In this document: positions 9,901 to 62,100 of the stretch, one piece after another
Position numbering within the stretch: the first letter of the stretch is position 1
How the letters are laid out: each line of letters starts with the position of its first letter
From: Henricia sp. BOLD:AAB3569
Lineage: Eukaryota > Echinodermata > Asteroidea > Spinulosida > Echinasteridae
DNA: 64,000 nt
Assembly: GCA_037783545.1 (NCBI GenBank)
Contig: JBBELK010000298.1
Span: 2,542,001 to 2,606,000 of the forward strand
Reading direction: 5' to 3'
Program-made: the position numbers and the translations under genes
The notes under the pieces: generated by a model
Databases searched by the model: none
The model's input: only the letters and a program-made list of their open reading frames with translations
Told to the model about the DNA's origin: nothing

Positions 9901-12900
9901 AATTTTACCCTGGAAGTGTAAAAATCAATCAACAGAGGGCGTCGCACAGCTTCATTCGATCTTCGTTTAGCAGTTGCCTAATGTGTACGGTACCGCTCTT
10001 CATTCGATCTTCGTTAAGTGAGATGAGAATGCACGCTTCGTTAACTAACTATGATTAACTAATCATCGTCAAACGAAGCGATTTCCAAGTGAGAACGGGG
10101 TCTTTGATTTGTGTAAGGTTAGCCAAACTCTGATTTATATGAGGAATTTGAATAAGGAAAATGTTCCAAGTGATTTTTGTCTGAGATATTTGAAAATTCG
10201 ACTTATCCAAGATTTACTGTATTTCCAAACTTCAAGGAGAAAAGATTATTTTAATCCAACCTTATTTCAATCATCTCTTTAGAAGACAGATAACCGCGTT
10301 CCCCGCGAGGACTACACCTCAGACAGTGATCGATCCGAGCTATCGGACATCGCGGAGGAGGCAGAAGAGGAACTATCGGATTTCGCTGATGGCAGCCTGC
10401 CAGGGTTCAGCGAAGACAGTGGAACCAAAGCCTACAAGAGGCTGAAACGCAAGGAGGATGAGCAGAAGAAAATGGTACAGGAAACGCTCAAGGTCAGTCG
10501 GTCAACGGTTTGCGTCTGTCACTTGTGAGTGGATAGGTTAAAGCACCATACTTATAGCAGTTCAACTTAAAATTTGTACATTTCACATTTCATGAGAACA
10601 CCTGCATGCACATCTTGGGATCTCAAGAATTTTCCACTCTGCTAAGGCGGCTGTTGCATTCATCAAACATACGCCCGAGTCATTTTGATGTAATTTAATC
10701 CATTTGGTCATGTTATGCCGAAATAAAACATTTCTTTTCTTTCCAGAAATTGTACTGGTTCTGTTCCTTATGACTGTCCCCAGGCGCAGATCCAGAGGGG
10801 AAAGGGGTCAAAACCCCCCTGCTCTGACTATTTTTTTAAATTTTATTTAATGCATTTTGTGCATCCGCTAAAAGCCGATATGACTGGCTACCCTCCCTCC
10901 AAATTAGAACTAAAATTGTATTTCTTTTGTTTGGGGGTGAGGGACTAGGGGGAGAAGGCACGCAGCACACACCCTCCCCCCCCCCCCCCCCCCCCGCCCC
11001 CTCCCCCACCCTCCCCCACCCCCCCTCTGTGTACCTAAAGCGCCCCTGCCTCTAGCTATGGGGGATGTACAGGGAAGGAGATCCTAGTCTTTATTTACTT
11101 CTACAGCCTTCTTTGTGTCATATATAGAATCGAATCTTAATCCATTAATACCTGGGGTGTATTTGCCCTATATTGGTTGCGACAAACCCCATCTGATGGC
11201 ATTTTACACATTGTCCTGTTCGTAGTTCAACGCCAAGCCTGACCTAGAGCTGGACACAGACCCCGAACTCGAGATTCTCAACCGATCAGACAAGTGTCGT
11301 CCCATTCAAGTCATACGACAGCAGAGTGATTTTGAGAGGGAGACGGAGCAAAGTCCGCACAATCCTGTACTGGAACCGGTTCCCATCAAACAGAGTAGCC
11401 AAGGAGGACCAGCCGTGCCACACATTGGTGAGTGTTAAATCCCAAATAGACCGTATCGAATAGCCGCCATTTCGTGGGGCACCTTTTGTTACTTAAACCG
11501 TTTAACAATGGAAGCACAATATGTGCAACCATGCATGTCCTCAAGGAAACTGCACCACGCAATGGGGGATATTCGATACGGTCTATACATCATTTGCAGT
11601 TACCCAAAATTTTACTTTACGAGTTGACAAGAAAAACCAACTAAAAGTGCTGATTACAGGTTGCACACCATTAAATAGGGCTCCCATAGGAACCAATGCT
11701 AAATGCCCAATTTTCAAAAATCATTTAAAAATACTCACAACTCTCTAAGCTTCTCAGGACAACAACCAGAATACTCACTGATTTCTCATCTTTTTAATTC
11801 TGTTCAATTTTATGGGGGTAATCTGTCACTTTTATTCCCTAATTTCCACTTGAAACAAAACTACCCCTAACAACAGTGAAACTTGCTAATCAGACCTGCA
11901 TCCATTTTGGAACAAATTTAAAGGCACATACGCTACTGGGCAAAATAGGGCTACTTTTAGGAGCTATAGTGTCTAAAATGTTTATAGTTGGAAGAAAAAA
12001 TACCCCACATCGCGACGATAGTCATATTCTACACAAGACCACACTCGTTCAGCTCGCAACTCTCCCTAATAAAGAAGAATTTGAGGGCATACAAAATATT
12101 CATGAGCTCGGTGCACAGATCTCTGCCTATTTACTTGGGTGCACCCTGCAGTGATAACCAACACTACACCGTTTGTTTTCCTTGTAAAATGATACCTTTG
12201 TGGAGAAATTGCCTAGAAAAGGTTGTGTGAATCTAATGCCTTGAAATCCAACTTTTCTAACCATCAGAAATCACCCACCAAGACGAGGCTCGCAAAGCGG
12301 CCGCTTTAGAGAAGCGTTCAGAACCCACCGGCCAATCGTCAGCCCCGACACCATTCACTGATCCCAAATCCCGTCCGCCCAGCGAACCCCACCAACAACC
12401 CCGCCCAGCATCGCCACGCAAGAGCAGTCTCGGCGAGGACCGACAAGGTCCCCGCAAACCGTACCCCAAAGACTACGATGCCAAGTCCAATAACAACAGA
12501 CAACGAAAGCTGTCCGTGGACTCGCGGACGGACGAGACGGGAACGTACGAGACGGGAACATACGAGGATGAGGAGGATTATTCGGTCAGCGAGGGACCGG
12601 AGGAACTATATGATGATTCAGTGGTTCGATTCTTTATGGCGATGTATGATTATGATCCTACGGCAATGTCGCCTAATTATGATGCAGTGGATGAAGAGCT
12701 GAGTTTTAAAGAAGGGGATATTATTAAGGTATATCTCATTCATTTGATCAAAAAAATGTTGTAGTCAAATTCCCAACTGTAGTCAAATTTGAAAAATATA
12801 GGAAAAAGTGCATTCATAATATACAGGGGCGGATCCAGGGGGAGCATGGGGTGCGCACGCTCCCCCTTTTCAAAAAATAAATAAATAAATTTTAAAAATC

Positions 12901-15900
12901 CACACTTTTCCTGCTTAAAGTGGTTAAATATTGCCCCAGATCGCACCACAGAGCATCTATAATCCATATAGAAGCCGTTAGGGCTTCGCGCTACGCGCTC
13001 GCTATTTCATTGTCATCAGCATTTCATGCTTAAAAATTTCACGCCCCCCCTTTTCAAAATCCTGGATCCGCCCCTGATATACACCAATCCAGTAATTAGG
13101 GTCTCCTTCCCTGTACATCTACCATAACCGGGCACTTACAGTACCAGAACTGTGTGTTGTGTGTTGCTACTAAAATGTACAAAGTGCATTCATTACGAGG
13201 TGCCCCTGTGTGCCCAATCTCACAAAGATGCGCAACTTGTTTAAATCGACAGCAAAATGTAACGGCGTAATTTTCAACAAAAACACAAAACATTCAAGTC
13301 ATACACTGGATGCTCCCTTGCTATGATGGACATACAGAAAAGGAGTCCCTAGCTCTCGGATTGGTGTATATTAGGTTAAAATGCAATATGTTTTGTAACA
13401 AGACATTAACATTAAGTATCAAAATATGCAGGACAATTGATGGAAAAATGGTGTGAAATTGAGTGCTTACAAAGCAGCATTAACAATAAAACAAACAAAT
13501 TTGGGAAAAAGTGAGGGCAAGGATATTTCATATTTATATGAAAGATATTTTATTTTGATATGCCCATACATAATGTGGTATATGAACTGTGAGGACAATA
13601 AATCATAGTCTGCCCAGTTGAAATTCGAACCATGACACCCTTCATCAGAGGCGGATCCAGCCTCATTAAAATACAGGAATACAATGAAATTCAGGGGGTC
13701 CATACATGTTTTATTTTTTTATTTTTTTATTTTAATTTTATTTATATACCACATCCAACAGCGGAGGGACCGCCAATTACAGGAATGGGAGCAAGTGTGG
13801 TTGAGTGCCTTGCTAAAGGGCACAGTTGCCACAACCCGTCACGGCCAGGAATCGAACCTACATTCTAGTACTAGCACAGGAACTTAAGTTTGACGCACTA
13901 GACCGCTCGGCCATAACACCCCACATTATTTTGTTCAAAGGCTCATTTATTATTGTATTTATAGGTTTTTGGTGACAAGGACGCCGATGGCTTTTACATG
14001 GGTGAACTAAACAACCAGCGAGGCTACGTCCCACACAACATGGTGGAAGAGGTCGAGGCTCCTGATGAACAGACTCCCCTCAACCCAACCAAGACGCCCA
14101 GTACAGGGGATGTGGTGTCTGGAGAATCACCGGATAGGGGTGGCTACAGTAGCAGTCTAAATACCACCACGGGGAGTCCAGGTAGGAACCAAGATTGGTT
14201 TATCTGTCAGAAACTGGTTTGCAGTATTAGACTCGCGTTGTTTCTTGTGATACTTGCTTATGGGTCTTTCTATAAATTAGGGGTCCAAAAGTGTGACATT
14301 ACGGCTGCGTTCGGGCGTGTACTCGTGTTAACACGAGTTATACTCCTGCGCGCGTGACCGGCAAGAATAACGACACTCGGGTCAGTGAGAGTATGCTCTC
14401 ACTACTCCCCAACAAATGGGGAGTGTGCTCGTACTCCTGTAAAGTGTCATGTGATTTGTACGAAGATGCTGGAATATGGGTGGGATTTTTTGTGAATTTG
14501 CTCAACCTGTCAACTCAATAACTGAAACAATAACTCACTAAGGTTTGTTTCAGACGGCAACAAGGTTCTCACGACTTACGGCCTGTATTTCCTCAGTTTC
14601 TTGTGAGCAATGAAACAACATTTTTTTGTGCAGTGATGGCAAGAGACGTCCATCTTCACTAATTGCCATTCGCGCACGCGGACTGCGGATTTGCCGTTCG
14701 CGTGATGTGACCCGAGTGCAATGCGCACGCAATACTCCCGAGTAACGAGAACTGCACGCCCGAACGCAGCCTTAGTGTCCCCCGTTACACCTGATATGTG
14801 TTATTTTTTGTACAAAAATCATTAAAATGTCTTTTAAACAATTTTTTATGAATTGTACTTTATGTACTCGCTCTTTGAAATGGAAAGTATTTAAAGAATG
14901 TGTCCTGAAATCACAAAAACGAGATGTAAAATGTAACAGGGGACACCAACATTGGACCCCTAATTTATAGAAAGACACATATGCCTTTTAGCAATAATAG
15001 ACCTTTATCACATTGCGTCCATCTTTGTCTTGTTCCCCAATAGTACAAGTCGGGTACGATCAGTGCGTCTGCGTTACCGCGCGATAGTGTAAGAAGCACT
15101 GCCAACGCTGCGCCCTCACTTGAACAACTTTTTATCTTTCCCTCTCCCAAACCAGTGCAAATCATGAGCAGCCCGCTGACCAGCCTGCACATCGCACAGG
15201 ATGCCCGACCCCAGAAGATGAGGGCACTGTTCGACTACAACCCGCAGGAGCTGTCGCCAAACCCGGACGCCGAGGCTGAACTGTCCTTCAAGCAGGGTGA
15301 TGTCATCATCGTGTTTGGAGAGATGGATAACGATGGATTCTTCGTGGTAGGTGTTTCAACTAAAAACAATAGACTTATTAAAGATAGTATACATGTTTGG
15401 TAAACTGTTACAAATAGTTTTATCCCCCTGTGTGATTGAAGATATGCATGATAACCAACCTGAGCAAAAACCAGCTCCGTACTTCTTCTAACTTTCGAGA
15501 AAACAGTCAAAAAAGGGTTTGAAGTCATTTCGCCCCAAAACCACTTCGCCCTGAACCATTTCGCCCTGAACCACGGCCTGTGCACGAAGTGGTTTTGGGG
15601 CAAAGTGGCATTTGGGCGATGTAGTGTTTGGATGAAGTGATTTAGGGCGAAATGGCACTCGGGCGAAGTGGTTTGGGGGCGAAATGGCACTTGGGCGAAA
15701 TGGTTTTGGGGCGAATTGAATTTTCGTCTCATAATCGTTTTACTCATTTCTCAAAGACTATATCACTTCAGACAAAACAATTTCAGGGGAAGTTTTCTAC
15801 GGTCATCATGTTTATTTTTATATTGTGTGAGTTAGGCGTAAATCTGTGAAAATGTCTGATTTTCGAGATATCAATCATGTATACTGCCTTTAAATGGGCG

Positions 15901-18900: not shown

Positions 18901-19797
18901 ATGAACTGATTAGGTTGTTGGCCAAAAATCACTGCTCTATCAATCTATCACTGCTCTAAATCTCATTCTTCTTTTCAGAGAAAAGTAGCTTAAAGATAGT
19001 ATACATGATTGGTAAACTGTTACAAATAGTTTTATCCCCCTGTGCGACCATGATTAAAACCAACCTGAGCAAAAACCAGCTCTGTACTTCGTCTAACTTT
19101 TGAGAAAACGGTCAAAAAAGGGTTTGCAGTCATTTCGCCCCAAAACCACTTCTCCCTGAACCATTTCGCCCTGAAATATTTCGCCCTGTGCACGAAGTGG
19201 TTTTGGGTCGAAGTGGCATTTGGGCGATGTAGTGTTTGGACAAAGTAATTTGTGGCAAAATGGCACTCAGGCGAAGTGGTTTGGGGGCGAAATGGTTTTG
19301 GGGCGAATTGAATTTTCGTCTCACGAGACGAAAACTAATTGTTTTACTTATTTCTCAAAGACTATAGCACTTCAGACAAAACCATTTCAGGGGAAGTTTT
19401 CTACGGTCATCATGTTTATATTGTGTATGTTAGGCGTAAATCTGTGAACATTTCTGATTTTCGAGATTACCAATGATGTATACTGCCTTTAAACTTAGTG
19501 AACTTTGTGAAATGGCAAAAGTGCATCTTGTCACTCTTCCACACTCCATTTTGATTGCCGATTTCTAAAATTTCTCAGAGGACCCTTTTCCATTTCCCAC
19601 AGCTCCAGACCCGACAGCAGGAGAACGGCGAAGCCCCGGGTAAGGTTCGAGAGATGAGATCTAACTCGGACGCAGCGGACCAATCGGGTGACAGCATGGG
19701 CACGCCCGAGCACATCAAGAAGAAGAAAGGCCTTCTGTCCAAGGGCAAAGCTCTCTTTAAGAAGCTAGGCGGTGACAACAAGCAGAAACACAAATGA
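840..19797 (+). CDS. RIMBP: RIM-binding protein (RIMBP), 3' part of gene, 11 exons
   Basis: RIM-BPs are presynaptic active-zone scaffolds whose SH3 domains bind proline motifs in RIM and voltage-gated calcium channels. Exons are 840-956, 4963-5139, 6365-6537, 8866-9036, 10283-10492, 11226-11427, 12268-12728, 13965-14181, 15156-15346, 16102-16353 and 19603-19797. All have AG/GT borders and compatible phases, giving about 787 residues. In order: the end of one FN3, a full FN3, an acidic Ser-rich linker, SH3-II (about residues 447-530), SH3-III (about 595-662) and a Lys-rich tail. The FN3 end 'FKTLPGG', the 'GLSNGAVVTGYAVYA' core and the paired late SH3s match the RIMBP layout. SH3-I and the earlier FN3 sequence must lie left of the window. 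A short exon inside the 3.2-kb last intron cannot be excluded. Confidence 0.92.
1021..1451. mobile_element. TIR element, GGGGTCCAAA family, copy 1
   Basis: The left end TTCCCAAAATTAGGAGTCC is inverted at the right as GGACCCCTAATTTTGGGAA. The interior carries 'GGGACACCAA', shared with the copies at 14261, 23929 and 55938. No coding capacity. Confidence 0.75.
2911..3660. mobile_element. Harbinger-type MITE with TAA target duplication
   Basis: GGCCTTTTCACACTAT at the left is inverted as ATAGTGTGAAAAGGCC at the right, and TAA flanks both ends exactly. A 3-bp TWA duplication is typical of PIF/Harbinger elements. The interior has many ACACGGGTC/CCCGTGT copies and an antisense open frame (3152-3442) with 'LTWSEEELAAI', faintly like a Myb/SANT start. 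Confidence 0.75.
4175..4735. repeat. Dispersed repeat, long copy with inner foldback
   Basis: 'ATTCATAAATACCTTAGACA' and the following ~90 bp recur at 1896-1990. The end (about 4600-4712) is a foldback in which CCGTTTAAAACCGG and TAGGGTCCTGGGCA are inverted around an AAGCTT core. The copy at 1896-2112 keeps only one arm. Confidence 0.65.
4963..5139 (+). CDS. RIMBP: RIMBP exon: N-terminal half of the next FN3 domain
   Basis: The exon starts after taaccag and ends at ACCG|gtaagc. It encodes 'LPDAPLDVQVKAG', the conserved tryptophan in 'VEWLPV', and 'GLSNGAVVTGYAVYAED', a signature of RIMBP FN3 domains. Intron phase is 1 at both ends. SINE sequence begins essentially at the donor. Confidence 0.92.
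5140..5402 (+). mobile_element. tRNA-derived SINE at the donor of RIMBP exon 4963-5139
   Basis: It shows a B-box-like GTGGGTTCAAGCCCCAC, then 'GTCCCTTGGCAAGACACT' and the 'CCTGATGGCAGTGG' tail shared with 17270-17620. The tRNA-like part starts inside or immediately after the donor gtaagc. Confidence 0.7.
5405..5560 (+). mobile_element. Second SINE-like unit
   Basis: It has 'GGTTGTGGGTTCGAAACAAC', a B box, followed by 'GAGCAAGGCACTTAACCTC'. It is a different subfamily from the element just upstream and is truncated. Confidence 0.55.
5664..6160. mobile_element. TTAA-flanked MITE, copy A
   Basis: The ends are TTAAAGATAGTATACATGAT and, inverted, TTAAAGGCAGTATACATGAT. A TTAA duplication suggests a piggyBac-like origin. 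The interior holds degenerate units GGGCGAAATGG/TTCGCCCC. Other copies are at 15378, 18990 and 50174, with fragments at 43690 and 56833. Confidence 0.8.
6365..6537 (+). CDS. RIMBP: RIMBP exon: C-terminal half of the FN3 domain
   Basis: The acceptor is ccttccag and the donor is GCAAAG|gtatta. It encodes 'SARDVVVRTLSPNGFSIDS', followed by a proline-containing linker 'IPPVLMEE'. This completes the FN3 begun at 4963. The exon leaves in phase 0. Confidence 0.9.
6538..8865. other. RIMBP intron, no recognised feature
   Basis: It is AT-rich intron without a convincing exon or TIR element. Small frames such as 7190-7390 have no homology signal or splice context. Confidence 0.5.
8866..9036 (+). CDS. 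RIMBP: RIMBP exon: Ser/Asp-rich linker
   Basis: The acceptor follows tctatacag and the donor is GCTAAG|gttaga. It is 57 codons, phase 0 to phase 0, rich in Ser, Asp and Glu, with no folded domain. It is assigned by phase continuity and by its place between FN3 and SH3-II, where RIMBPs have a long unstructured linker. Confidence 0.82.
9123..9259. repeat. Perfect 56-bp palindrome arms
   Basis: The arms 9123-9178 and 9204-9259 are exact complements around a 25-bp spacer made of two CTTGCGCAATAA units. The outer sequence CAGCAGCCGATTTCACGAAA recurs in a diverged foldback at 45108-45254, so it is a MITE family. Confidence 0.92.
9526..10102. mobile_element. TIR element with TTCATTCGACGAAG repeats
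   Basis: GACCCCGTTCTCACT at the left is inverted at the right. Inside, CTTCATTCGACGAAG-type units recur many times. A smaller foldback with AGACTGGTT.CC ends (9816-9900) is nested in it. Confidence 0.8.
10283..10492 (+). CDS. RIMBP: RIMBP exon: acidic linker
   Basis: It is a 70-codon, phase 0 exon between tctttag and CTCAAG|gtcagt. It encodes the motif 'SELSDIAEEAEEELSDF', which resembles the ELSDI..EEELSD stretch of RIMBP linkers, and then a charged probable helix 'KAYKRLKRKEDEQKK'. Confidence 0.87.
10620..10785. repeat. Dispersed repeat shared with the CENPJ intron
   Basis: 'ACGCCCGAGTCATTTTGATG' and the next ~120 bp match 54525-54645, at high but imperfect identity. The two copies sit in introns of different genes. 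Confidence 0.75.
10974..11025. repeat. Poly-C low-complexity tract
   Basis: A run of about 20 C is followed by CCCTCCCCCACC units within a RIMBP intron. Length here is likely unreliable in any assembly. Confidence 0.9.
11226..11427 (+). CDS. RIMBP: RIMBP exon: linker
   Basis: The acceptor is ttcgtag and the donor is CATTG|gtgagt, leaving in phase 1. It encodes an acidic start 'LELDTDPELEILNRSD' and a Pro/Gln-rich end. No domain is recognised. The frame is continuous with both neighbours. Confidence 0.84.
11446..11586. mobile_element. Small TIR element ATAGACCGTATCGAATA
   Basis: ATAGACCGTATCGAATA is inverted as TATTCGATACGGTCTAT. A related copy lies at 55393-55546, next to CENPJ exon 6. 11590-12250 resembles a repeat also seen near 29840-29945 (GACAAGAAAAACC...CTAAAAGT). 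Confidence 0.8.
12268..12728 (+). CDS. RIMBP: RIMBP exon: basic/Pro linker and first half of SH3-II
   Basis: This is the longest visible exon of the gene (461 nt), from catcag to ATTAAG|gtatat. A Pro, Ser and Arg-rich linker is followed by a duplicated 'ETGTYETGTYEDEED' and then SH3-II, which starts 'RFFMAMYDYDP' (the ALYDY motif) and has 'ELSFKEGDIIK' (RT loop and diverging turn). The intron splits the SH3 after strand b, in phase 0. Confidence 0.93.
12824..13076. mobile_element. CAGGGGCGGATCCAG MITE
   Basis: The ends CAGGGGCGGATCCAGG and CCTGGATCCGCCCCTG are exact inverts, flanked by ATATA on both sides. The next element, at 13078, begins immediately after. A relative with CAGAGGCGGATCC ends is intact at 26044-26156, and its left half appears at 13648. 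Confidence 0.85.
13078..13371. mobile_element. ACACCAATCC TIR element
   Basis: TATACACCAATCC at the left is inverted as GGATTGGTGTATA. The internal CCCTGTACATCTACCATA is also seen in the related element at 47299-47643. Confidence 0.75.
13735..13922 (-). mobile_element. tRNA-derived SINE, minus strand
   Basis: Read on the minus strand it starts TGGGGTGTTATGGCCGAGCG and has GTAGGTTCGATTCC, the A and B boxes of a Leu/Ser-type tRNA. 'GCAAGGCACTCAACCAC' follows. It ends 42 bp before RIMBP exon 13965. Confidence 0.75.
13965..14181 (+). CDS. RIMBP: RIMBP exon: second half of SH3-II and linker
   Basis: The acceptor is tttatag and the donor is AGTCCAG|gtagga. It encodes 'VFGDKDADGFYMGELN' and 'RGYVPHNMVEEV'. 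These are the n-Src loop, the conserved aromatic, and the ALYDY-SH3 terminal G(Y)VP.N motif that forms the proline-binding surface. A Ser/Thr-rich linker follows. Confidence 0.93.
14261..14978. mobile_element. GGGGTCCAAA family TIR element, copy 2, with nested MITE
   Basis: The outer ends TTTCTATAAATTAGGGGTCC and its complement near 14952-14972 define the element. Inside, 14303-14771 is a second element with GGCTGCGTTCGGGCGTG inverted ends. The nested element is therefore younger. Confidence 0.8.
15156..15346 (+). CDS. RIMBP: RIMBP exon: first part of SH3-III
   Basis: The acceptor is aaaccag and the donor is TTCGTG|gtaggt. It encodes 'MRALFDYNPQELSPN', 'ELSFKQGDVIIVFG' and 'MDNDGFFV'. This is the typical third RIMBP SH3, paralogous to SH3-II. 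It enters in phase 1 and leaves in phase 0. Confidence 0.93.
15378..15893. mobile_element. TTAA-flanked MITE, copy B
   Basis: Same ends and TTCGCCC/GGGCGAA interior as copy A, inserted 31 bp after the RIMBP exon ending at 15346. 15898-15975 is a separate fragment (GGCCATGACAGG...GTAGGCAC) shared with 23183-23260. Confidence 0.85.
16102..16353 (+). CDS. RIMBP: RIMBP exon: end of SH3-III and YSP heptads
   Basis: It starts 'GELFGQRGLVPSNFLEIV', which finishes SH3-III with the LVPSNFLE motif. A tail follows with four near-heptads of the form (A/P)YS(P/S)xHQ, then an RGSRGSRGS stretch. The donor is ACACAG|gtagga in phase 0. Confidence 0.92.
16475..16772. repeat. Dispersed repeat 'CCATGTTGATAAAACTGCC'
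   Basis: It shares ordered blocks (AAACTGCC.TGTA.AAATTT, GAATGGTAAAAA, CATTG.TATCAAC) with 42345-43522 and 51060-51830, and is flanked by CTTTAAA. It is probably an old MITE family without clear TIRs here. Confidence 0.6.
16773..18989. other. Last RIMBP intron outside the named repeats
   Basis: Apart from the SINE at 17270 and a GCGAA-rich half foldback at 18056-18240, it shows AT-rich sequence. 17051-17110 has a (CAT)n run ending in gaggaacgg|gtaagg, which looks like a donor but gives no in-phase exon. Confidence 0.45.
17270..17620 (+). mobile_element. tRNA-derived SINE, nearly full length
   Basis: A box GTGGTCTAGTGGGTATGAAG, B box GGGTTCAAGCCCC, then 'TCCCTGGGCAAGGCACTTAA', a conserved body and the end GCGCTATATAAGAAT(CCACCATTATCATTATC). 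The first 18 bases are duplicated in tandem. It is the reference for copies at 635, 5140 and 31210. Confidence 0.85.
18990..19492. mobile_element. TTAA-flanked MITE, copy C
   Basis: TTAAAGATAGTATACATGAT opens the element and ATGTATACTGCCTTTAA closes it. It is slightly shorter inside than copy B, and lies 110 bp before the terminal RIMBP exon. Confidence 0.85.
19603..19797 (+). CDS. RIMBP: RIMBP terminal exon and stop
   Basis: The acceptor is ttcccacag. It encodes 64 residues ending in the Lys-rich 'KKKKGLLSKGKALFKKLG' and a TGA stop at 19795-19797. A basic GLLSKGK-type C-terminus is shared with vertebrate RIMBP2, which supports this as the true end. An internal gtaagg (GGGTAAGG) is in frame and is probably not used. 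Confidence 0.9.
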   Translation, partial: LQTRQQENGEAPGKVREMRSNSDAADQSGDSMGTPEHIKKKKGLLSKGKALFKKLGGDNKQKHK

Positions 19798-30736: not shown

Positions 30737-31131
30737 ATGGCAGGGACTATGTGCCGTGCTTTGACTATTGCATTTTTGGTTGTTATATTCCATCTGAACG
30801 GAGGACTGGCCGTGCCGATGCCCACGCCGACGGCCATGCCGATGCCCACGCCGACGGCCACGCCGACGGCCACGCCCACGCCCACGCTCACGCCGACGCC
30901 GACGCCCACGCCGACGCCCACGCCGACGGCCACGCCGACGGCCACGCCGACGGCCACGCCGACGGCCACGCCGACGGCCACGCCGACGGCCACGCCGACG
31001 GCCACGCCGACGGCCACGCCGACGGCCACGCCGACGGCCACGCCGACGGCCACGCCGACGGCCACGCCGACGGCCACGCCGACGGCTCTTCCTCCTGAGC
31101 TACATAAAATAGTGACGGAGCTTTGCTCGAG
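30737..31131 (+). CDS. Putative first exon: signal peptide and (PTPTA)n mucin-like stalk
   Basis: An ATG at 30737 opens '[20 protein letters not shown]', followed by NGGLA, a strong signal peptide with likely cleavage after LA. A perfect-to-near-perfect 12-bp repeat then gives Pro-Thr-Pro-Thr-Ala repeats, expected to be O-glycosylated. The frame ends at a TGA at 31148-31150. Candidate donors are CGAG|gtattt (31131) and GATT|gtgagt (31146), both phase 2. The next recognised receptor exon (37605) needs phase 1, so at least one exon is missing in between, or this is a separate gene. Repeat openness proves nothing about coding because several frames are open. The signal peptide is the real evidence. 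Confidence 0.5.
30811..31086. repeat. 12-bp minisatellite GCCGACGGCCAC
   Basis: About 22 units of 12 bp, irregular at the 5' side and uniform from about 30925. It encodes Pro-Thr-Ala repeats in the signal-peptide frame and is open in other frames on both strands. Confidence 0.93.
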
Positions 31132-31209
31132 GTATTTAAGGGGATTGTGAGTCATTAAAATCATTAAAGTGTAATGTTTGTGTTTAGAACTGAATAATAA
31201 TAAATAATA

Positions 31210-34194: not shown

Positions 34195-34578
34195 TGTAAT
34201 ATATATGTATATAACTACATAATTTCAACCAAAAAAATGAAGATTTTGTATATGTAACGTTTGACATTTTGTATTTTTAAGTTATCACTCGCAGAATCCA
34301 TGTGCACACATACCTGCATCTATATTTCGGAGCCTGTGCGAACTTATCTGCGATTCGTCTGAGCATCAGTGTTGGAACGTGAGCATGCGCGACAGGAGCC
34401 AATCACAGTTCCCATCTACTAGTGAGTTACTTTAACAAATTGCTGCTTGTAAAGACACATTTGTATTCTCAGATTCAATCCTATTCCTCACTTAATTCGA
34501 CCTGTAAGTTGCTGTAAATTGCTGTAAATTCTGCACAATCATGCAAAAGAGGAGTAAACAAACTGTTTTGGTTTTCCT

Positions 34579-37604: not shown

Positions 37605-37773
37605 GACTTCCTTGCTTGAATGGCCAGAATCTTCATTGCGAGTACTCGGATGCTATTGTCTGCAAATATGAAGACGAGAGTGGATCATGCGTTTACATGA
37701 GTGGCGGCTTTAACGGGTTTTGCCAATGCAAAGACGAATATGTCGAGTCACGGTTGCTGTTCCAGGCCGAAGG
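37605..37773 (+). CDS. Receptor exon: small Cys-rich extracellular module
   Basis: The acceptor is attttcttgcag and the donor GAAGG|gtagat, phase 2. Cysteines occur in LPC, LHC, IVC, GSC and FCQC. Spacing and the 'GFCQCKDEY' end look like an EGF- or EB-type knot, but no family assignment is secure. It needs a phase 1 exon upstream that I did not find. Confidence 0.75.
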
Positions 37774-40700
37774 GTAGATTTTTTGTTTGTTTGTTCAGTT
37801 TGCCGGAGTTATCAGCTTTCGAATGTGACACCATAGTAGATGAGTGCTACCCTGTTTATTTAGATGCCGCCATATCTCAAAGAGCCTTCGGGCCTTCGAC
37901 CGTATACAAATAAGAAGTCGACTTATTAAACTCAATTTACGAAGACGCATTGGCAAAATAAGTATCTCGCCAAAATGATATATATTTCATGAAGTCGACT
38001 TTGGTAGGATAAATATATCGGTATAATACCTGAACGGGTAGACGGCACTCATAGAGCGCTGTAAGAAACGCCCCTGCATGATATACAGCTTGAAAATAAA
38101 TCCACCCATAGCATGGAAAGTTATATGGAATAAATAATATTGGGGTAAGCCGGGCAGGAGTTTGGGGCGTATCTGAAATGATCTCTGTGTGGCGTGGTTA
38201 TCTCATTGCAGGGCTTGCTAAGCTCACGCGATAGCCAATCCCAATCAGTGAGGAACAACTGCACGACTGTGATTCGAGACTACCAGTTGGTTTCATAACT
38301 CAACTGGTAGAGCATCTGCACGTTAAGCAGAAGGTCCGCTGTTCGAATCTCGGTGGAGCCAAGTTGCTTTTCACTGCATCCAGATTTCCCAAACATTTGT
38401 ATCGGAATAAATAATAATATAATAAAGTCTGAACCGCTGCCGTCGCGAAACATTTCTGAAAGCAAACAATTTATAATCCATATCTTCGCATTAGTAGAGT
38501 TCAGTGAGTGATAATTTTCGCCAATTGATAATTTCGGCAATCCGAGTAAAATATCTGGTGTTTAATAACAAATCATATATATCCATTACAGGCCTGTATT
38601 CCCAAAGAGACATAAGAGGGATATTGGTATGCTGGGATTTTTTCAAATGACTGTTTTCACCTATTCCTGTGACAAGGTGTGTCTGTCATGCAGATATAAT
38701 TGTCCAATCACAAAATATATGCGTATCCCACAATATCCCTAACTTATTGTGAGTATAAGAAATGTATTGCCATATTGTCATAAAACAATTGGAATTTGAC
38801 TTGCACTGCGCGTGTAAAACATTACTTAACATACTTATATTAATATTACTTAAAAATTATGCACATGACTTTAAACAGTTAACAATTGATACTAAGAGAC
38901 ACCGTACCACAACTAAAATAATTATTACAGAGCACTCACACTAGTGGATAGAAACTGGTTTTCAATCTGCTTCTTTTAGATTTGGTGACCCTGCAGCGGC
39001 TCGCGTGAGCTGTGAAATTCCCGTAATGAATAATGCTCCATACACAACTCAAGCCCCACCTACGGATAATGCTCAGCACGCAACTCAAGCCCCGTCTACA
39101 ACTCAAGCCCCATCTACAACTCAAGCCCCGTCTACAACTCAAGCCCCATCTACAACTCAAGCCCCGTCTACAACTCAAGCCCCGTCTACAACTCAAGCCC
39201 CATCTACAACTCAAGCCCCGTCTATGGACAATGATCCTGATCCAACCTACCTTCCGTACGGTAAAAACAACGTGGCCACGGTCGTTCTAGGCTCTGTCCT
39301 CTCCGCGGTTCTGCTGGTGATTCTTGGCATCGGAGTTTGCTACTTTTGGAGGAAGAAACGCAATAATTCCACGGAACAAACGCCGTAAGTTTGCCACGAT
39401 TTAGTAACCGATCTACACAAACAAATTTGATATACTGTCGGAAAGATTATTATAAAAAATTATCAATTTGTTTTTGTCTTGTAGGAATCCTGAAGAAATC
39501 AAGTACTCCGCGAAAAATTGTAAGTATAGATATTGACAAAATTCTAATGCTGGGCCATTGTATTAATTGCGTCACGCGTCTTTTAATTTATTACAATAAA
39601 GCACCGAGCCCCCGTTTTCAATGACGATTTGAAATTCCTCAATACGCATTGTCATCGTAGGCATATTTACCTTTATTCATTATTAAAACAGGACACAGTT
39701 TTTACCTTAAAGGTGTTTAACAAAATCAGAATATTGAACACCAACACCACGCACTTTTGAAATCGTAAGCAGGAAAATGGCGGGTAAATTATGTACAAAT
39801 TTAACGTTACAATTGATGTTGAATAGACCAGTTGCTTGATAGATTTGCATAAGTCCTGGAGTCACACCTTATATTTACATAAATGCTAGAGTCCCGCCTT
39901 CGCGCTATTAGCGTATGTATATACGAGTGGCTCAAGCGCTGTACTATATCTGGCCAATCGGCCCGTTTCCAGGAGGTGCATGCTGGTACATGGTAACCGT
40001 GCGGTACATGGAATACATCTATGTATTTTTAAGCTGGACCCTATGTTGATTGAACATGTTCATCAGCAACTTCAAACCAGTCAAATAACCCAAAATCGTT
40101 TCTCCACTTTCTTGAATGTATCATTGCAGTTTGGAAACGTTCCAGCTTTCAAAGTTGACATCGATTTCAAGTTTGAAAAAAAACACGTTCTATTTCGTAA
40201 TTTTGACGAACATTCACGATGAGTACGTGTTTTAACATGTTCATTTCACTTGTAATTTCGGATGGTCCATGTTAAAAATGCATAGAGCAATGTGCGAGGT
40301 ATTCCAGGTACCGCACAGACTTTCGCGCTGGTTACTATGTACCAGCTTGCACCACCTGGAGACGGCCCGATTTGCCAGATAGTCTGGTGCTTGACTCACT
40401 CATACGCGAGCGCCATAGCACGAAGGCGGGACTCTATCACGCAACTGGTCTATTGAAATTTCGTGTTCGGTGCTATTTTTGTATACTACCCAAATAATTC
40501 GTCGCTGACATCACGAAGTGACACCCAAGTTACCAAGTGTACTTCTGTTACAGTTCATGAAAACCGCACAGTGAAGTGAGGACACATGTTTGTCACGATC
40601 TGACATCCGAGTGTGCGCGCGCACTCCGTGCACTGGACTAAAAACGCATGAATTTTTGTTTCCACGAACTGACATCCCAAGTAAACGTTGAATTTATTCA

Positions 40701-42127
40701 GGAAAAAAAGCTTTGAAAAGGCTCGACATGAATGGTATCATCCATATACTTGTGAAATAAAGTAAGAGAACATTGTCAGAAACACTGTCTCCATTTTACG
40801 ATATCAGTTCGTGAAAAAAAAAATGTTGGGTGTCAGTTAAACAGTGAAATTACAGTTTAAAACGTCATTTTCTCCCCGAGACGAGCACTGAATTAGGCTA
40901 AGTGGAGTAAGTACCACTGAGTGTCAGTTCGTGGTGTATAAAATAACGTCTTATTTAAAAAAAACTGTAAATATAGTGGTAGGCTTAAGTTATTTTGGTT
41001 TATATAATTTTATTATTAAAAAAAAAAAGAATAAACCGTAATAAACTTTTTAGAATTACGTATTTTTTGCTGTAGCCAAGGTAGGCCTACCAGAACTGCC
41101 GGTGTGCGGCGAAGATAACGAGTACACGTACGTGGACGAGCGCTGGCGCCGGGAACCAGCTGCTATTCCGACGGAGCAGCCCCAAAAGGTTGAAAATTCG
41201 ACGCAAAATCACCTCGTCAACAGCAACTCAAAGGTAGAGAAAATGATCAAAGATGGCGACCATTCCGCTGAACTGCCTCCCAGCGATCCCGAGTATTTCG
41301 TACTGGAGAAAAACGAGGACGGTGAAACAGATGGCTATCAAAGTCTCATTAAGAATGGCGACCAGGGGAGTGGTAATTCTGGGTACGAAGTTGCGCGTCC
41401 AGGAGAAGCAACCACCGAGGACCTGAGCAACGACGCGTCCCCGTACGATCACCTGGACAGAGCGACCGTGGACAAACCGTCAAACGAGGGCACCCTGGCG
41501 AACGTGGACGAGCAGGATGATTACAGCCACATCGAAGCTGCGCGTCCTGGAGGAGCAACCACCGAGGACCTGAGCAACGATGCGTCCCCGTACGATCACC
41601 TGGACAGAGCGACCGTGGACAAACCGTCAAACTCGGGCACCCTGGCGAACGTGGACGAGCAGGATGATTACAACCACATCGAAGCTGCGCGTCCAGGAGG
41701 AGCAACCACCGAGGACCTTAGCGACGACGCGTCCCCGTACAATCACCTGGACAGAGCGACCGTGGACAAACCGTCAAACGAGAGCACCCTGGCGAACGTG
41801 GACGAGCAGGATGATTACAGCCACATCGAAGCTGCGTGTCCAGGAGGAGCAACCACCGAGGACCTGAGCAACGACGCGTCCCCGTACGATCACCTGGACA
41901 TAGCGACCGGGGACAAACGGTCAAATGAGGGCACCCTGACGAAAGTGGACGAGCAGGATGATTACAACCACATCGAAGCTGCGCGTCCAGGAGGAGCAAC
42001 CACCGAGGATCTGAGCGACGACGCGTCCCCGTACGATCACCTGGACAGAGCGACCGTGGACAAACCGTCAAACGAGGGCACCCTGACGAAAGTGGACGAG
42101 CAGGATGATTACAACCACATCAAGTGA
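37605..42127 (+). CDS. Type I transmembrane receptor with ITAM-type motif and ITIM/hemITAM-like repeats (3' four exons)
   Basis: Exons 37605-37773, 38980-39384, 39485-39519 and 41076-42127 join in phases 2, 2 and 1 with clean GT-AG borders, giving 552 residues to the stop. Outside the membrane are a Cys-rich module (six Cys, a seventh just after the junction) and a TTQAPS mucin stalk. One TM helix (about 39271-39346) is followed by WRKKR as stop-transfer. The tail of about 370 residues has 'DPEYFVL' and 'YQSL' ten residues apart, fitting ITAM spacing, and then five 49-residue units. I do not recognise a named orthologue. A role as a phosphotyrosine-signalling (immune or phagocytic) receptor is inference. 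Endocytic YxxPhi sorting is an alternative reading of the same motifs. Confidence 0.82.
38289..38360 (+). tRNA. tRNA-Asn(GTT)-like sequence, probably a pseudogene
   Basis: The acceptor arms GGTTTCA/TGGAGCC pair with two G-U wobbles, the anticodon stem TCTGC/GCAGA is intact, and the loop ACGTTAA would place GTT as anticodon. Position 33 is C instead of T and the T stem CGCTG/CTCGG does not pair. It is more likely a pseudogene or SINE head than a working tRNA. Confidence 0.4.
38980..39384 (+). CDS. Receptor exon: mucin repeat stalk, TM helix, start of tail
   Basis: The acceptor is ttcttttag and the donor ACGCC|gtaagt. It begins 'FGDPAAARVSCEI', has about eight 6-residue TTQAPS units (18-bp repeat at about 39081-39224), a spacer 'DPDPTYLPYGKNN', the helix 'VATVVLGSVLSAVLLVILGI' and the basic anchor WRKKRN. 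This is a typical type I stalk and membrane exon. Confidence 0.87.
39485..39519 (+). CDS. Receptor micro-exon in the juxtamembrane tail
   Basis: It is a 35-nt exon between ttgtcttgtag and AAAATT|gtaagt. It encodes 'NPEEIKYSAKN' and joins in frame on both sides (phase 2 in, phase 1 out). Strong splice sites and perfect phase support it despite the length. Confidence 0.77.
39822..40455. mobile_element. MITE with AATAGACCAGTTGC ends
   Basis: AATAGACCAGTTGC is inverted as GCAACTGGTCTATT. The arms continue for over 150 bp (GAGTCCCGCCTTCG and GGTACATGGTAACC-type blocks) with more mismatch. It lies in the receptor intron between 39519 and 41076. 40460-41075 shows only weak TGACA/GTGTCA repeats. Confidence 0.8.
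41076..42127 (+). CDS. Receptor terminal exon: ITAM-type motif and five 49-aa tyrosine repeats
   Basis: The acceptor is tttttgctgtag. The first two bases complete a codon from 39519. It encodes 349 residues and a TGA at 42125-42127. Tyrosine motifs in order: YTYV, YFVL-x10-YQSL (41294-41347), YEVA, then alternating SPYxHL and DDYxHI, five of each, to the C-terminus. SPYDHL fits the ITIM pattern (S/I/V/L)xYxx(I/V/L). The second motif follows the acidic stretch DEQDD, as in hemITAMs. Confidence 0.87.
41384..42124 (+). repeat. 147-bp coding minisatellite, five units
   Basis: The unit is 147 bp (49 codons). For example, the GAAGCTGCGCG start recurs at 41534 and 41681. Units differ by few substitutions, including SPYDHL/SPYNHL and YSHI/YNHI, and all keep frame and all tyrosines. 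High similarity suggests recent expansion or homogenisation. Confidence 0.93.
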
Positions 42128-42179: not shown

Positions 42180-42185
42180 AATAAA
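42180..42185 (+). promoter_or_regulatory. Poly(A) signal AATAAA of the receptor gene
   Basis: A canonical AATAAA lies about 53 bases after the stop codon. It would give a very short 3' UTR. No other hexamer is closer. Confidence 0.6.
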
Positions 42186-42429: not shown

Positions 42430-43342
42430 GTGACCCGCTCTGCAAAAAAAGGTCGCTCCGGCTAGTATACTACGAAGACCCAGAGGGGACATGTAAGTAT
42501 TTTCCTTTTTTTATTTTTTAATACGTACGTACGTGATAATAGTACGTACGTACGTGATAATAATACGTACGTACGTGATAATAGTACGTTTGTTCGTGAT
42601 AATTTAATACGTACGTACGTGATAATTTATCACGTACGTACGTAATAATTTAATACGTACGTACGTGATAATATTAAGTACGTACGTAGTATTATCACGT
42701 ACGTACGTGATAATAATACGTACGTACGTATTATTATCACGTACGTACTTAGTATTATCACGTACGTACGTATTGTTATCACGTACGTACGTGATAATAA
42801 TACGTACGTACTTATTATTATCACGTACGTACGTACTATTATCACGTAAGTACGTATTAAAAATAAAAAAGCATAATACTTAAATGTCCCCTCTGGGTCT
42901 TCGTAATATTCTTTTTGCGACCATAAAAAGAAATCTGTGGCATTTCTACGCTCATTAAAATACCTTTATATATGTCTGCTTATATTAATTTTTAACTAAG
43001 AATTTTCCTAATCTTATTTTTATATGTATTTGTTTTTATTTTTTCAATCTTAATTTATACGGATTTTATCCGGGGAGTGGTTTTAAAATGGACTGTCAAG
43101 TCTCTTCCACAACCCTTGACTTTGTCAAAAAGTGTAAAATAAAAAAATAAACACAAAACAAAATCCAGGCGTAACATTCCAGGGGGAACACAGACATTCC
43201 AGGCGGTATCTGGGCACCGCCAGGAATTTCCATTGTGTTTTGGTATTTTATTGAGCGTGGATTTGCCGCGGATTTCCTTTTATGGTCGCAAAAAGAATAC
43301 TAGCCAGTGCGACTTAAGACCCTTTTTTGCAGAGCGGGTCAC
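42430..43342. mobile_element. Nested TIR element with GTGACCCGCTCTGCAAAAAA ends
   Basis: GTGACCCGCTCTGCAAAAAA is inverted at 43323-43342. A second pair of arms, ATTCTTTTTGCGACCATAAA near 42907 and its complement near 43285, lies inside. The left half contains the ACGT palindrome. Confidence 0.85.
42463..42911. repeat. Palindrome built of TACGTACGTACGTGATAAT units
   Basis: The outer arms ACGAAGACCCAGAGGGGACA and TGTCCCCTCTGGGTCTTCGT pair exactly. Between them about 18 units of ACGTACGTACGT alternate with GATAAT or ATTATC in both orientations, so the whole block is self-complementary at several registers. Confidence 0.9.
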
Positions 43343-50105: not shown

Positions 50106-53100
50106 GTAAAACATTACTTTAAGATGCCCAAAAGTGACCATTTGACATTAACGCTTAGACTGGAAGATGTCCTTATAAAGATAGAAGATATGCATGATTA
50201 AAACCAACCTGAGCAAAAACCAGCTCCGTACTTCGTCTAACTTTTAAGAAAACAGTCAAAAATGGGTTTGCAGTCATTTCGCCCTAAAACCACATCGCCC
50301 TGAACCACGGCCTGTGCGCGAAGTGGTTTTGGGGCGAAGTGGCATTTGGGCGATGTAGTGTTTGGACGATGTGTTTGGAGGAAGTGATTTGGGGCGAAAT
50401 GGTACTCGGGCGAAGTGGTTTGGGGGCGAAATGGCACTTGGGTGAAATGGTTTTGGGGTGAATTGAATTTTCGTCTCTTGAAATTGTTTTACTCATTTCT
50501 CAAAGTCTATAGCACTTCCGACAAAACCATTTCAGGGGAAGTTTTCTACGGTCATCATGTTTATATTAGGTAAGTTAGGCGTAAATCTGTTAATACTTCT
50601 TATTTTCGAGATACCAATCATGTATACTGCCTTTAAGTCCTTTGCAAAAAAATGCCCGCCACCATTTTAGTCCGAGTTTGATTTTCTACTCTAGTAAGTT
50701 TACACGGACGTGTCAGAAATCTCACGTTACAGTCAAAATGAAACTTTGAAAACCATACCATGGAGGTTGTTCGACTCGCAAGAACTATGTGCAATGGTCG
50801 GTTTTTACCAATGACGTAACACTAATTAATGCAATGGAGTACCGGTACATGTATTTATCCGGCATGCTTCTTTTCAGCTGATCAGCTGATTTCCTTTTCT
50901 TTTTTTTTCCCTCATCCGTCCCATTGAAAATTTAAAAACACTGTACAAAGTTGGAGATTTTTTCCCTTTTCCTCTTTAAAAAAAAATAATGACACAGTTG
51001 CATGCCTGATTTATTAAAGATGGAGTACGTACATGATTGGTAAACATTTAAAAACGGCATTATTTCTACTCGTAATTAAAAACCTATGTCAACAAAACTG
51101 CCTTGTAGAAATTTTAGCCACGTACCGGTAGATGCAGTAATACTTCAGAAAACCTGAAAAATCCATACTTATTTTGTTGTGTATGAATGAATGGTAAAAA
51201 GCACCTTTAGTTGGCAATTGTTCTGACAAAGGTTTCATGTTACGCGGAAAAAAATCATGTAGTGTTTGTTACCATTGCTATCAACAGTTTTTTCTTTTCA
51301 ATCCATGCAGTAACATTTCTGGTAACTACTATAGGGCTTTAAAGGGCCTATAAATGATCTGTTTTTGAGCGATTCTGGGAATAAAACCATTATAAATCAA
51401 AAGGAATTTCAGCTCCGCCAAATGTACCATGTTTTCCAAAAACATGAAAATCCATATGCGTTTTGTCGGTCTTAGCGGAGTGTTTCAAAATAACTTATCC
51501 TCAATTCGTCTCTTTGTTCTCAGTCGGTCGCATACTGTGTGGCTCGCATTATGCACTCTGTGGCTCGCGTTATACTGCGTGTGTGCGCGACCTAAAGAGT
51601 TACATATTTAAAAATGCATCGCGTTGGAACAGCGCACACAGTACACAGCGCCCATTTTAGACCGCCCAGATGCGAACCAATAAGTAAATAGTTTGCAAAC
51701 GATCTGAATAATTTCATCTTCATGGATTATTTTCTACCAACCCAATCTTTACTTTGATGAAGGTTTCCCTGTCAACTCGTTGATTAACATTTGGGGCCAT
51801 TGCAATTGATAGTGGCCTTTATATATCATGTGACTTGCAATTCTCCAATCAAATGATTATATGTGAACTTCTGCAGATACCAGTGCTGATCATGCAGAGC
51901 AGCAGCAGGCCAAAGAACAAGCTCGTCTGCTGCAGCGATTTCAGCAACTCAAACAATGGCAGCAGCAACAGCAGGAAAAACTGCTGCGTCAACAGCAAGA
52001 ACAGCTGCAGAAGCTACGACTGGAACAGCAGAGGGTGGAACAAACATTGGTGGCACAGCGGCAAAAACAGTGGGGAGGTGCGTTTGACTGAAAATAATGA
52101 TTTTTAACAAACTTTCCAATTTTAATTCTTGAATATTTTTCATTTTGTTTTAAAGTGATTGATACAATAAAGCACATATGAGTTCTTATTCTTTTCTGGT
52201 CCCAGGCATTCAGCAAATTCAACAGTCCCCTCCAAGGGCCAAGCCTGTTTCCCATCCACCAAGAAGCCCTTCAACCAGCCCTGCCAGGTCCACCGTCCCT
52301 GATGCCCTGGCCAAAGCCTCTATCTCCCTGGGTAAGACTGCCGGCCCGATGGTCCTAAATCCCCTCCTGGATCAGGCCCAGAATCACACTCGGGATAACA
52401 TGGTGGAGCTGGTAGGTGAAACATGCGGAAGTAACAAGTTAAATTTTAGTTGGGGTGTTTCAAAATAACAAGAATTTGAAGTTTTATAGGCATGTCATAG
52501 TAACTGCCACATGTATCATGTCAAATACCATTTACCCGTATTTCGTCTGCATTGAACTCAGAAGTCAAAAACACAAGCTATTATAAGGCCCTAATAATAC
52601 TCTTTCAGAAATTGTTTAATGGTAAAGGCATGTTCTGCAATGTACAGTCGAAAGCTGTTTAATAAAGAGAGGTCCTTGGGACGTTGCATGTTACCTTGTT
52701 ATAACAGTAATCTTGTATTTTCAGGTTCGACAAAAAAATCTGAAAGGCAGAAGCTCGTCAATGCACACGTGAGGCCAAATTCGTGCCACGAAATACGCAG
52801 CTCCAGAGCAAAGGCATGGAGCTGCGTATTTCATGGCACAAATTTGGCCTCATGCGCGCATTGACGAGCCTCTGCCTTTAAAGTTTCCTTGCTACGTGTA
52901 GAATTTTGTATTAAAAGTGTTCTTATTATCGAGGTTTGACAGCACACACTTTTTGATGTATTTGGACATCTATCTTTTCATTGAAATATTGTCTTCCAGA
53001 AGCCTGACCAGGACTTGGCCAGTGACGTTGCCAGTTCCGTGGTGGAGGAGGGGGTCTACCCACTCCCAGAGACACCATCGGAGGTTAGCTCGGGGTTCTT

Positions 53101-59100: not shown

Positions 59101-62100
59101 CCACCTTCCCCTTGCACTCCCCTTTCCCTTGCACTCCCCCCATGCACTTCCCGCCTGCACCCCCACCCCAAATGAGACTTTGGATTTGCACAACTGTATG
59201 TGTAAGCTGCTTTGCGTGCTCCCCCCCCCCCCCCCCCCCCCACCCCCCACACCCCCCTGTGACATGCTCTGCCCCCCCCATCCCCCTCCCCCTCTTTTTT
59301 AAGTCTGGCAACACCGCTGGTGATGTGCTTATTTATAGCACTAGAAGTGTGCGAAAGTACATGATGGGACTGAATTGGGTCATATACAGCAGAAATGTTT
59401 GTAAATAGTTATTTAATGCCTTATTGAAATTGGATGCTTTCTCCCAATTTCAATTTGCATGACCAAATTCATTCCTCCCCCTGCCCCCTGCCCCTGCCCC
59501 CTCCCCCTTCCCCCTCCCCCTCCCCCTGCCCCCTCCCCCAGTCTGTTGTGGCCATTTTCATCCAAACATTAAAGCATACATTTGAGTCATTAAATTTACA
59601 GTTAACCCGTTCGCAGCGGCGAACCATTTTCCAATTCCCCCTAGAGTGGGAGACTGCACTTGCAGTTTTTGCTTATACAGTACATGTACATGTCTCGGAG
59701 GTTGGAGACTTGTAGTTGATAACCATTTGATATTTCAAATCGTAAATCAATTTTATTTCCCAAGTCCAGTCACAATTCATTTTCTCAAGAGTCAAGTCAC
59801 AGGTCAAAAACTAAAAACTGACTTGAGCCCAAGCCAGCAAGTTGAGAGACCAGCTTCTGCCCTGGTAGTACTGACCCATTGGTTAATTCTGTATAACCGT
59901 CCCAAGATACTGACACTTAAAACTGCATATGCAGTTCCCCGTCGTCGCGAAGGGGTTAACTATTTGATGTAATTTATCAACTTTCAGAGACAAGGAGGCC
60001 CGACAAATAAGCTTCAAGTACCTTCCAAGTCCACGATGACTCAAAAATTTGGACAACTCCGACCAATTCCATCACCTGAAATAAAAATAATGTCACTCAA
60101 CCTGCCGAGACGCTTCATCGGTCGCACTGACAAAATCCTGGAAGCGAGTCAAGAAGACAGTTTTGAATTCAGAGACCAAACTCTGACTGGGGACAATGAA
60201 GATGATTATGGTCTTGATGTGGAGGGGCATGGAAGGGGTTTAAGAGAGGGTGAGACGGAGGGACGTCGGGCTGGGAGTGTGACCGAAGAAGACTCGGATG
60301 AAATGCTGGGGGAAGGCAGAGATGGTTTCTTAAAGGCTTCACGTAGAAGCGTAGAGCACAGAGGTAAGGCTGGCGAGAGATTTGAAGTTTTAATGCATGA
60401 GGCCAAAAAGAGGCTTCATTATAAAAGACATCTCCCTTATGTACAAATGTGTTCAAATTTCCAATATACGCTCGTAACCGGACAGACGCTTGTGTTACAT
60501 TTTAGGCCGTCCCGGTTACTAGCGTATATTGGAAATTTGTACACAGGGCTTTTAGAAAGGCATGTTGTCACACTATTTGTAACCCTTTTTGGGCCTAAGT
60601 TATCTATTCAGAACAACTGAAACTTATTTCTTTTATTTTAAGACAAGACAAAGGTATTTCCTTGAAAATATGGTCCGTGTTGCCAAAATGCCCCCTTTAC
60701 TGTGGAAGGACTCGTATGTTGTGCCCTTATTCCAGAAATCCACCAAAACGTTTATCTCTCAAGTGATATATTGGACATGTGTAATACATGTGTAATACAT
60801 GTGTAATACATGTGTACAGGCATGAGAATTCCCCGCCGTTCCGCGGTTTCCCGCTTTTTGGAGGCCAAAATATGTCCTCTCCGAGTTCAATGTGAATCTG
60901 GTTTAAAATTTGGGGGGTAGAGGTGGTCTAGGGTGATTTTTTTTTAGGGAAATTGTGAAAATATAATACCTGAAATGCCCCGAGATCGGCACTTTTAAAG
61001 TCGGCTTCATAGCTTTGTTTTTAGACGCTCCCAGCTGTTTTATAAACCCGTTTGTCCGATCTTATTTACACGACGTACGCAGAGGGAAATTTATAAAACT
61101 CGGAGGTGGTCGGAGGTAGATTGTTTTTGCTAACGTGTAGTTGGTGCGTTAACGGTGGCCCGGAGCTACGCGGTATTAAAATAACAAGCCGGAAGTAGGT
61201 TGTAGCATGTACTACACGGTCACAACAAATTCTACCTACGGGTTACCTCCAACCTCCGGGTTTCAACGACACCCTCCGCAGAGTGATGAAGTGCTGCTAC
61301 AGAGATGAAGTTTACTAAACGAATCAACGATCGCGTTAGGTATCAAGTATTCCATGACGTCATAAAAGTTGTCCAATCAACGATCCCCTATAATGAGGGT
61401 TAGGAAATGCTGTTGTTGAATGAGTAGATTGGTTCCCGATCCCATCGCTTATTGCGAACATATAAGGATCGGTAAAGGGCAGCCATGACGGGCAGAATTC
61501 TGCCCGGTCACGTGGTTATTATTATAATTTTTTTTTAGTAAGTGCGCATATTTTGCATTGACATTTGTAACCCGGCCGTGCATGTCGAAATCAAGATGAA
61601 GCGCCCTTTACCTGTCCCTATATTCTCCTATGTGGATGGGAACCAGTCTATTGATTGAGCGGCCATCGTGTTAACGCTTTGGCCTTTGTGTACGTGAAAG
61701 AAAAAAAGTTATAGTAAAATTATGGTCTTGATGTGGAGGGGCATGGAAGGGGTTTAAGAGAGGGTGAGACGGAGGGACGTCGGGCTGGGAGTGTGACCGA
61801 AGAAGACTCGGATGAAATGCTGGGGGAAGGCAGAGATGGTTTCTTAAAGGCTTCACGTAGAAGCGTAGAGCACAGAGGTAAGGCTGGCGAGAGATTTGAA
61901 GTTTTAATGCATGAGGCCAAAAAGAGGCTTCATTATAAAAGACATCTCCCTTATGTACAAATGTGTTCAAATTTCCAATATACGCTCGTAACCGGACAGA
62001 CGCTTGTGTTACATTTTAGGCCGTCCCGGTTACTAGCGTATATTGGAAATTTGTACACAGGGCTTTTAGAAAGGCATGTTGTCACACTATTTGTAACCCT

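Follow-up and report, generated by a model that had tools for sequence, protein, structure and literature searches.

A six-exon gene for a type I membrane protein is predicted on the forward strand between positions 30737 and 42127 of the window, that is, the whole stretch of 64,000 nucleotides that was analysed. The coding sequence, assembled from splice signals and homologues, was 2160 nt long and encoded 719 residues with one stop codon. Its exons, and two features of the last exon, are given below.

30737..31146, forward strand: exon 1, with the start codon, a likely signal peptide, a Thr/Pro mucin-like tract and the beginning of the Cys-rich part
34333..34421, forward strand: exon 2, CELICDSSEHQCW; start uncertain (34282, 34295 or 34333)
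37605..37773, forward strand: exon 3, Cys-rich module; acceptor TTGCAG; Patiria match
38980..39384, forward strand: exon 4, second mucin stalk, transmembrane helix and basic stop-transfer sequence WRKKR
39485..39519, forward strand: exon 5, 35-nt microexon encoding approximately NPEEIKYSAKN; exons 4, 5 and 6 form one open frame
41076..42127, forward strand: exon 6, which encodes the cytoplasmic tail up to the stop codon; acceptor GCTGTAG; Patiria tail match
41285..41350, forward strand: DPEYFVL-x10-YQSLI, an ITAM-shaped pair
41387..42121, forward strand: tandem array of five 147-bp units (49 residues each), every one holding SPYxHL and DEQDDYxHI

This predicted model was supported by reading frame, splice signals and homology. 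The exon 1 product has a hydrophobic segment starting at residue 8, a 12-bp tandem repeat (30814-31086, × 22.8) coding mainly for PTAT, and an LPPEL-type stretch common to the window protein and both sea-star relatives described below. Exon 2 was in frame with exon 3 and gave a weak tblastn match to the Acanthaster segment LCEQLCRTDDVSHNHQCWDL (E = 1.1, taken alone); its junction with exon 1 is uncertain because five in-frame solutions were found. In exon 4, the stalk repeat TTQAPS is encoded by an 18-bp repeat (39081-39224, × 8), and the transmembrane helix lies at approximately 39272-39346 (peak hydropathy 2.75). The first-pass annotation had joined 39384 to 41076. Both ends serve as splice sites in the predicted model, but their direct joining was rejected as out of frame, with a stop after 14 residues; the tail frame is kept because the 35-nt microexon at 39485-39519 sits between them. 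Alternative in-frame acceptors were also seen at 41224 and 41284; use of either would connect exon 4 directly to the tail, remove the first part of the tail and could thus give shorter tails. An AATAAA signal was present at 42180, 3′ of exon 6.

The open frame of the tail spanned 41054-42127 (coding span also given as 41078-42124), with the last codon ending at 42124 and TGA at 42125-42127. The 377-residue tail was acidic (85 D/E vs. 33 K/R). Exactly ten residues (EKNEDGETDG) separated YFVL from YQSL in the pair starting at 41285, as had been noted from the sequence at first reading. Among 2000 shuffles, 0.8% matched the corresponding pattern, [DE]xxYxx[LI]-x(6-12)-Yxx[LI], when the full tail was used and 0.2% when it was cut after unit 1. 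The five repeats reported at the same time were likewise recovered: the units start at 41387, 41534, 41681, 41828 and 41975, are 147 bp long without indels, and carry one SPYxHL and one DEQDDYxHI each (5/5 units for both). Unit-to-unit DNA identity ranged from 0.918 to 0.959 (ten pairs), and the TRF score of the array (1311) was far above chance. YNHL replaced the YDxL form in unit 3, and YSHI was found in units 1 and 3. Tyrosines of the array alternated at distances of 26 and 23 residues. YxxPhi motifs were much more frequent than expected, with 13 in the tail where shuffles averaged 2.31 (0/2000 reached 13), a count that includes non-independent copies; when the tail was cut after unit 1, five motifs remained against a mean of 1.34, a number reached in 0.5% of 2000 shuffles.

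The searches recovered two relatives, sea-star proteins that are both uncharacterised. With the tail as query, one protein was retrieved at E ≤ 1 (Patiria miniata LOC119727025, E = 0.03), and this protein in turn retrieved Acanthaster planci LOC110986747 (49% identity), each among about 8000 candidates scored. A profile of the three proteins yielded no further relatives among 7993 candidates scored. When the Patiria protein was compared with the window by tblastn, three matches were obtained, in order and on one strand: the Cys-rich exon (60% identity, 43 columns, E = 6e-11), the transmembrane exon (E = 2.9e-4) and the tail (33% identity, 191 columns, E = 5.7e-17). These relatives point to a sea star as the most likely source of the sequence. 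Both relatives have a hydrophobic N-terminus, a Cys-rich module, a transmembrane segment and an acidic tail with YxYVD, DPxYF[VI]LEK, NSGYEVA, YDxL[DN]R and YNHI. The Cys-rich module, transmembrane segment and tail motifs common to all three place the predicted window protein in the sea-star LOC119727025/LOC110986747 family. The relatives differ from it in having a single unit each instead of five, an extra YDSL between YDxL and YNHI (absent from the window), no YQSL, and neither the long PT nor the TTQAPS arrays. Of the three species, therefore, only that of the window had the five-fold array. The Patiria protein was predicted without structure beyond residue 240 (pLDDT 25-37, from a shallow alignment).

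Five tyrosine motifs were conserved in the three species (YxYVD, DPxYF[VI]L, NSGYEV, YDxL[DN]R and Y[NS]HI). In three-way alignments, the invariant tail tyrosines were both of those in YxYVD and those of DPxYF[VI]LEK, NSGYEV, YDxL[DN]R and YNHI. Tyrosines were invariant significantly more often than other residues (6/9 vs. 37/171 tail positions, P = 0.006, unit 1 aligned), and the result was the same when units 2 to 5 were aligned in turn (P = 0.004 to 0.006). The first three-way alignment used an edited window sequence, and the tyrosine test was repeated with the unedited units. Unconserved repeat tyrosines in orthologues had been named as evidence against the original receptor proposal; both unit tyrosines were kept in 2/2 relatives. 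I, L or V occupied position +3 of 13/17 tyrosines in the window, 6/11 in Patiria and 6/10 in Acanthaster (binomial P = 3e-9, 4e-4 and 6e-4, respectively); the window count includes non-independent copies and became 5/9 (P = 0.003) with one unit only. Because tyrosines were preferentially conserved and YxxPhi motifs were enriched in all three tails, the tail is likely to serve phosphotyrosine docking or sorting.

Assignment of these sites to the classical immune motif classes, as proposed in the first-pass annotation, held up poorly in the relatives. The ITAM patterns had one match in the window and none in the tails of 2/2 relatives, and the narrower spacing x(6-8) gave no match in any of the three species. 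The first half, DPxYF[VI]L, was conserved in both relatives, but a counterpart of the second half, YQSL, was found in 0/2. The ITIM pattern [SIVL]xYxx[IVL] had five matches in the window, all of them copies of a single site, one in Patiria and none in Acanthaster. It fits SPYxHL in 5/5 window units, yet the serine at −2, present in those units and in Patiria, is P in Acanthaster, so that the consensus fails in one of the three species. The YxHI site of the unit has D at −2, which is outside the ITIM consensus. In the hemITAM consensus, acidic residues and then Gly precede YxxL. Neither the strict nor the loose hemITAM pattern was matched in the window, which has Q at −3, or in Acanthaster; the loose pattern had one match in Patiria. 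Given these counts, the protein is not filed as an ITAM or hemITAM receptor, although it could still work like an ITAM/ITIM-type receptor. What stands of the original description is a membrane receptor-like protein with a mucin stalk, a Cys-rich module and a multi-tyrosine tail in an invertebrate deuterostome, with two sea-star relatives.

Divergence between the copies was similar at synonymous and nonsynonymous sites (10 pairs; pS 0.030-0.089, pN 0.044-0.088), and the amplified block as a whole therefore shows no purifying selection. Among the 49 codons of the unit, 18 varied between copies, and the residue was changed in 13 of the 18, a proportion similar to that of nonsynonymous sites in the unit (about 113 of 147). 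None of the six unit-core positions (Y, +2 and +3 of both motifs) varied among the five copies, a marginal result (P = 0.053) and a post hoc one, as these positions were picked after the units had been seen. It was the sole sign of constraint from within the array. Position +1 varied in both motifs. Retention of 10/10 array tyrosines is in itself little evidence of function, since the divergence fits neutral drift after recent copying.

On balance, we judge it probable that the window encodes a type I membrane protein of a sea star or closely related echinoderm, whose mucin-like stalks and small Cys-rich ectodomain are followed by a disordered acidic tail acting as a phosphotyrosine scaffold. 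Clustering of the receptor would lead Src-family kinases to phosphorylate the YxxPhi sites of the tail, and SH2 proteins would then dock on them. In favour of such a scaffold, passages of PMC11593052 report that Patiria eggs have transcripts of SFK1, SFK3, Csk, Syk, HTK16 and a BLNK-like protein. A block of the form YDxL...YxHI would have been tandemly copied to five units in the lineage of the window, giving ten nearly evenly spaced sites. It is quite possible, though not the favoured reading, that these five copies are a neutral VNTR, i.e., that slippage or unequal exchange multiplied an ordinary tail block with no consequence for function, which is compatible with a docking tail. The near equality of pN and pS and the 13 residue-changing codons among 18 variable ones agree with neutrality, as do the two other coding arrays of the gene (exon 1, 12 bp × 22.8; exon 4, 18 bp × 8) and an array of 21-bp repeats beginning 0.4 kb downstream; with such neighbours, the locus appears liable to tandem duplication. 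Evidence against this reading comes from the maintained frame through the array, the conservation of the unit tyrosines in the relatives and, marginally, the six unchanged core positions. An artefact or pseudogene is very improbable: the window's own tail protein was not found in the protein collection among the candidates scored, but the 720-codon frame runs through six exons with GT/AG splice sites and one stop, and the copies differ at 18/49 codons, which argues against one unit assembled five times.

A purely endocytic or sorting function is unlikely but shares part of the evidence with the scaffold. YxxPhi motifs act as endocytic sorting signals, and YDHL, YxHI and YFVL could, when unphosphorylated, bind clathrin adaptors; the enrichment of YxxPhi in all three tails fits sorting and SH2 docking equally, but a ten-fold number of sites is unusual for sorting signals. 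A mixed activating and inhibitory immune receptor with one ITAM and ten ITIM or hemITAM sites appears improbable. The ITAM-pair match (0.8% of shuffles) and the five ITIM matches favour it, as do the Syk and HTK16 transcripts reported in Patiria eggs. The missing second half of the ITAM in 2/2 relatives, the unconserved ITIM position −2 in Acanthaster, the absence of hemITAM matches in the window and an array spacing (23/26) outside the ITAM range all count against it, and the idea of a mixed on/off switch was thus not supported by the sequences of the relatives.

For the phosphotyrosine scaffold, the 26/23 spacing would make an SHP2/Corkscrew-type partner with tandem SH2 domains, bound by avidity, a better candidate than Syk bound to an ITAM. 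On spacing only, the array matches the approximately 25 residues between two tyrosines expected for tandem-SH2 binding, and the gap between YDxL and YDSL was 24 residues in both relatives. For a second tyrosine placed at random in a 49-residue unit, the chance that both gaps fall within 23-26 was 8% (21% for 20-29). PD-1 and BTLA carry a pair of sites (an ITIM and an ITSM) and an Ig ectodomain, compared with ten array sites in the window. In both, 25 residues lie between the ITIM tyrosine and the ITSM tyrosine, a distance at which the tandem SH2 domains of SHP1/SHP2 may be able to bind bivalently (PMC8631942, passages). The closeness of the array spacing to this value is only suggestive, given the 8% chance and the D at −2 in one of the two sites.

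Tandem copying of a tyrosine segment in a disordered tail also occurs in the EPIYA-C segments of CagA, for which one to six copies are reported in passages of PMC4623810; in the same source, an increase from one segment to two raised SHP2 tandem-SH2 binding more than 100-fold, and later steps measured were less than two-fold. CagA is a bacterial effector with another motif, and the likeness is an analogy only. Signal gain of the sea-star receptor could evolve by gain and loss of 49-residue double-tyrosine units with a spacing suited to tandem-SH2 proteins, a copy-number avidity dial possibly varying between individuals, but we regard such a dial as distinctly unlikely. The ectodomain of Draper differs from that of the window protein. 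This invertebrate receptor illustrates ITAM/ITIM signalling in the fly, with an ITAM acting via Shark and an ITIM in another isoform bound by Corkscrew (Draper-I/Draper-II; PMC9008705, passages); the two motifs are split between isoforms, and there is no array. The earlier remark that no described receptor has the present arrangement was too strong for mixed motif classes, because FCRL2, FCRL3 and FCRL5 combine ITIM with ITAM-like motifs in a single tail, and FCRL3 recruits Syk, ZAP70, SHP-1 and SHP-2 (PMC4950983, passages). These are Ig-domain vertebrate receptors for which the passages of that source describe no tandem array, and the likeness implies no homology. A comparable five-fold double-tyrosine array was not met in the titles, abstract openings and passages of the literature covered. 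The locus names LOC119727025 and LOC110986747 were not mentioned in the literature searched, and the sea-star and echinoderm ITAM/ITIM papers covered, by title, abstract start and passages, included none on this protein family. Syk stands in a table row marked Chordata in the part of PMC8662651 covered, at odds with the Syk homologues reported in invertebrates in passages of PMC10253181 and PMC5978004. Work cited in a passage of PMC2248247 suggests an early origin of both activating and inhibitory ITAM/ITIM receptors.

If the array binds SH2 proteins, sea stars with one unit and with five would provide a natural test of the number of docking sites against receptor output, and the protein would be a candidate upstream receptor for echinoderm Syk, Shark/HTK16 or SHP2-type proteins. 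If the array is neutral, counting motif copies overstates function.

Three further tandem arrays lie in or beside the gene (30814-31086, 12 bp × 22.8; 39081-39224, 18 bp × 8; 42522-42855, 21 bp × 15.6), and the locus is therefore rich in VNTR-like sequence. Upstream, RIM-binding-protein-like exons were found on the forward strand at 4959-15400, with Ig_RIMBP2 at 4959-5297 (E = 1.1e-22), SH3_2 in two frames (at 13965-14354 and at 15044-15400, both scoring above the Pfam cut-off) and one further SH3 piece below the cut-off; these exons mark the DNA as animal. A dispersed minisatellite-like repeat of the GCGAAATGG/CATTTCGCC type was present at 5832-5909, 15526-15715, 19131-19315 and 50318-50462. 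Two identical 300-nt stretches (60205-60504 and 61719-62018) were 1514 bp apart, and the ACATGTGTAAT array recurred at the same offset (60775 and 62289); the identical pair is either a recent duplication or an assembly duplicate.
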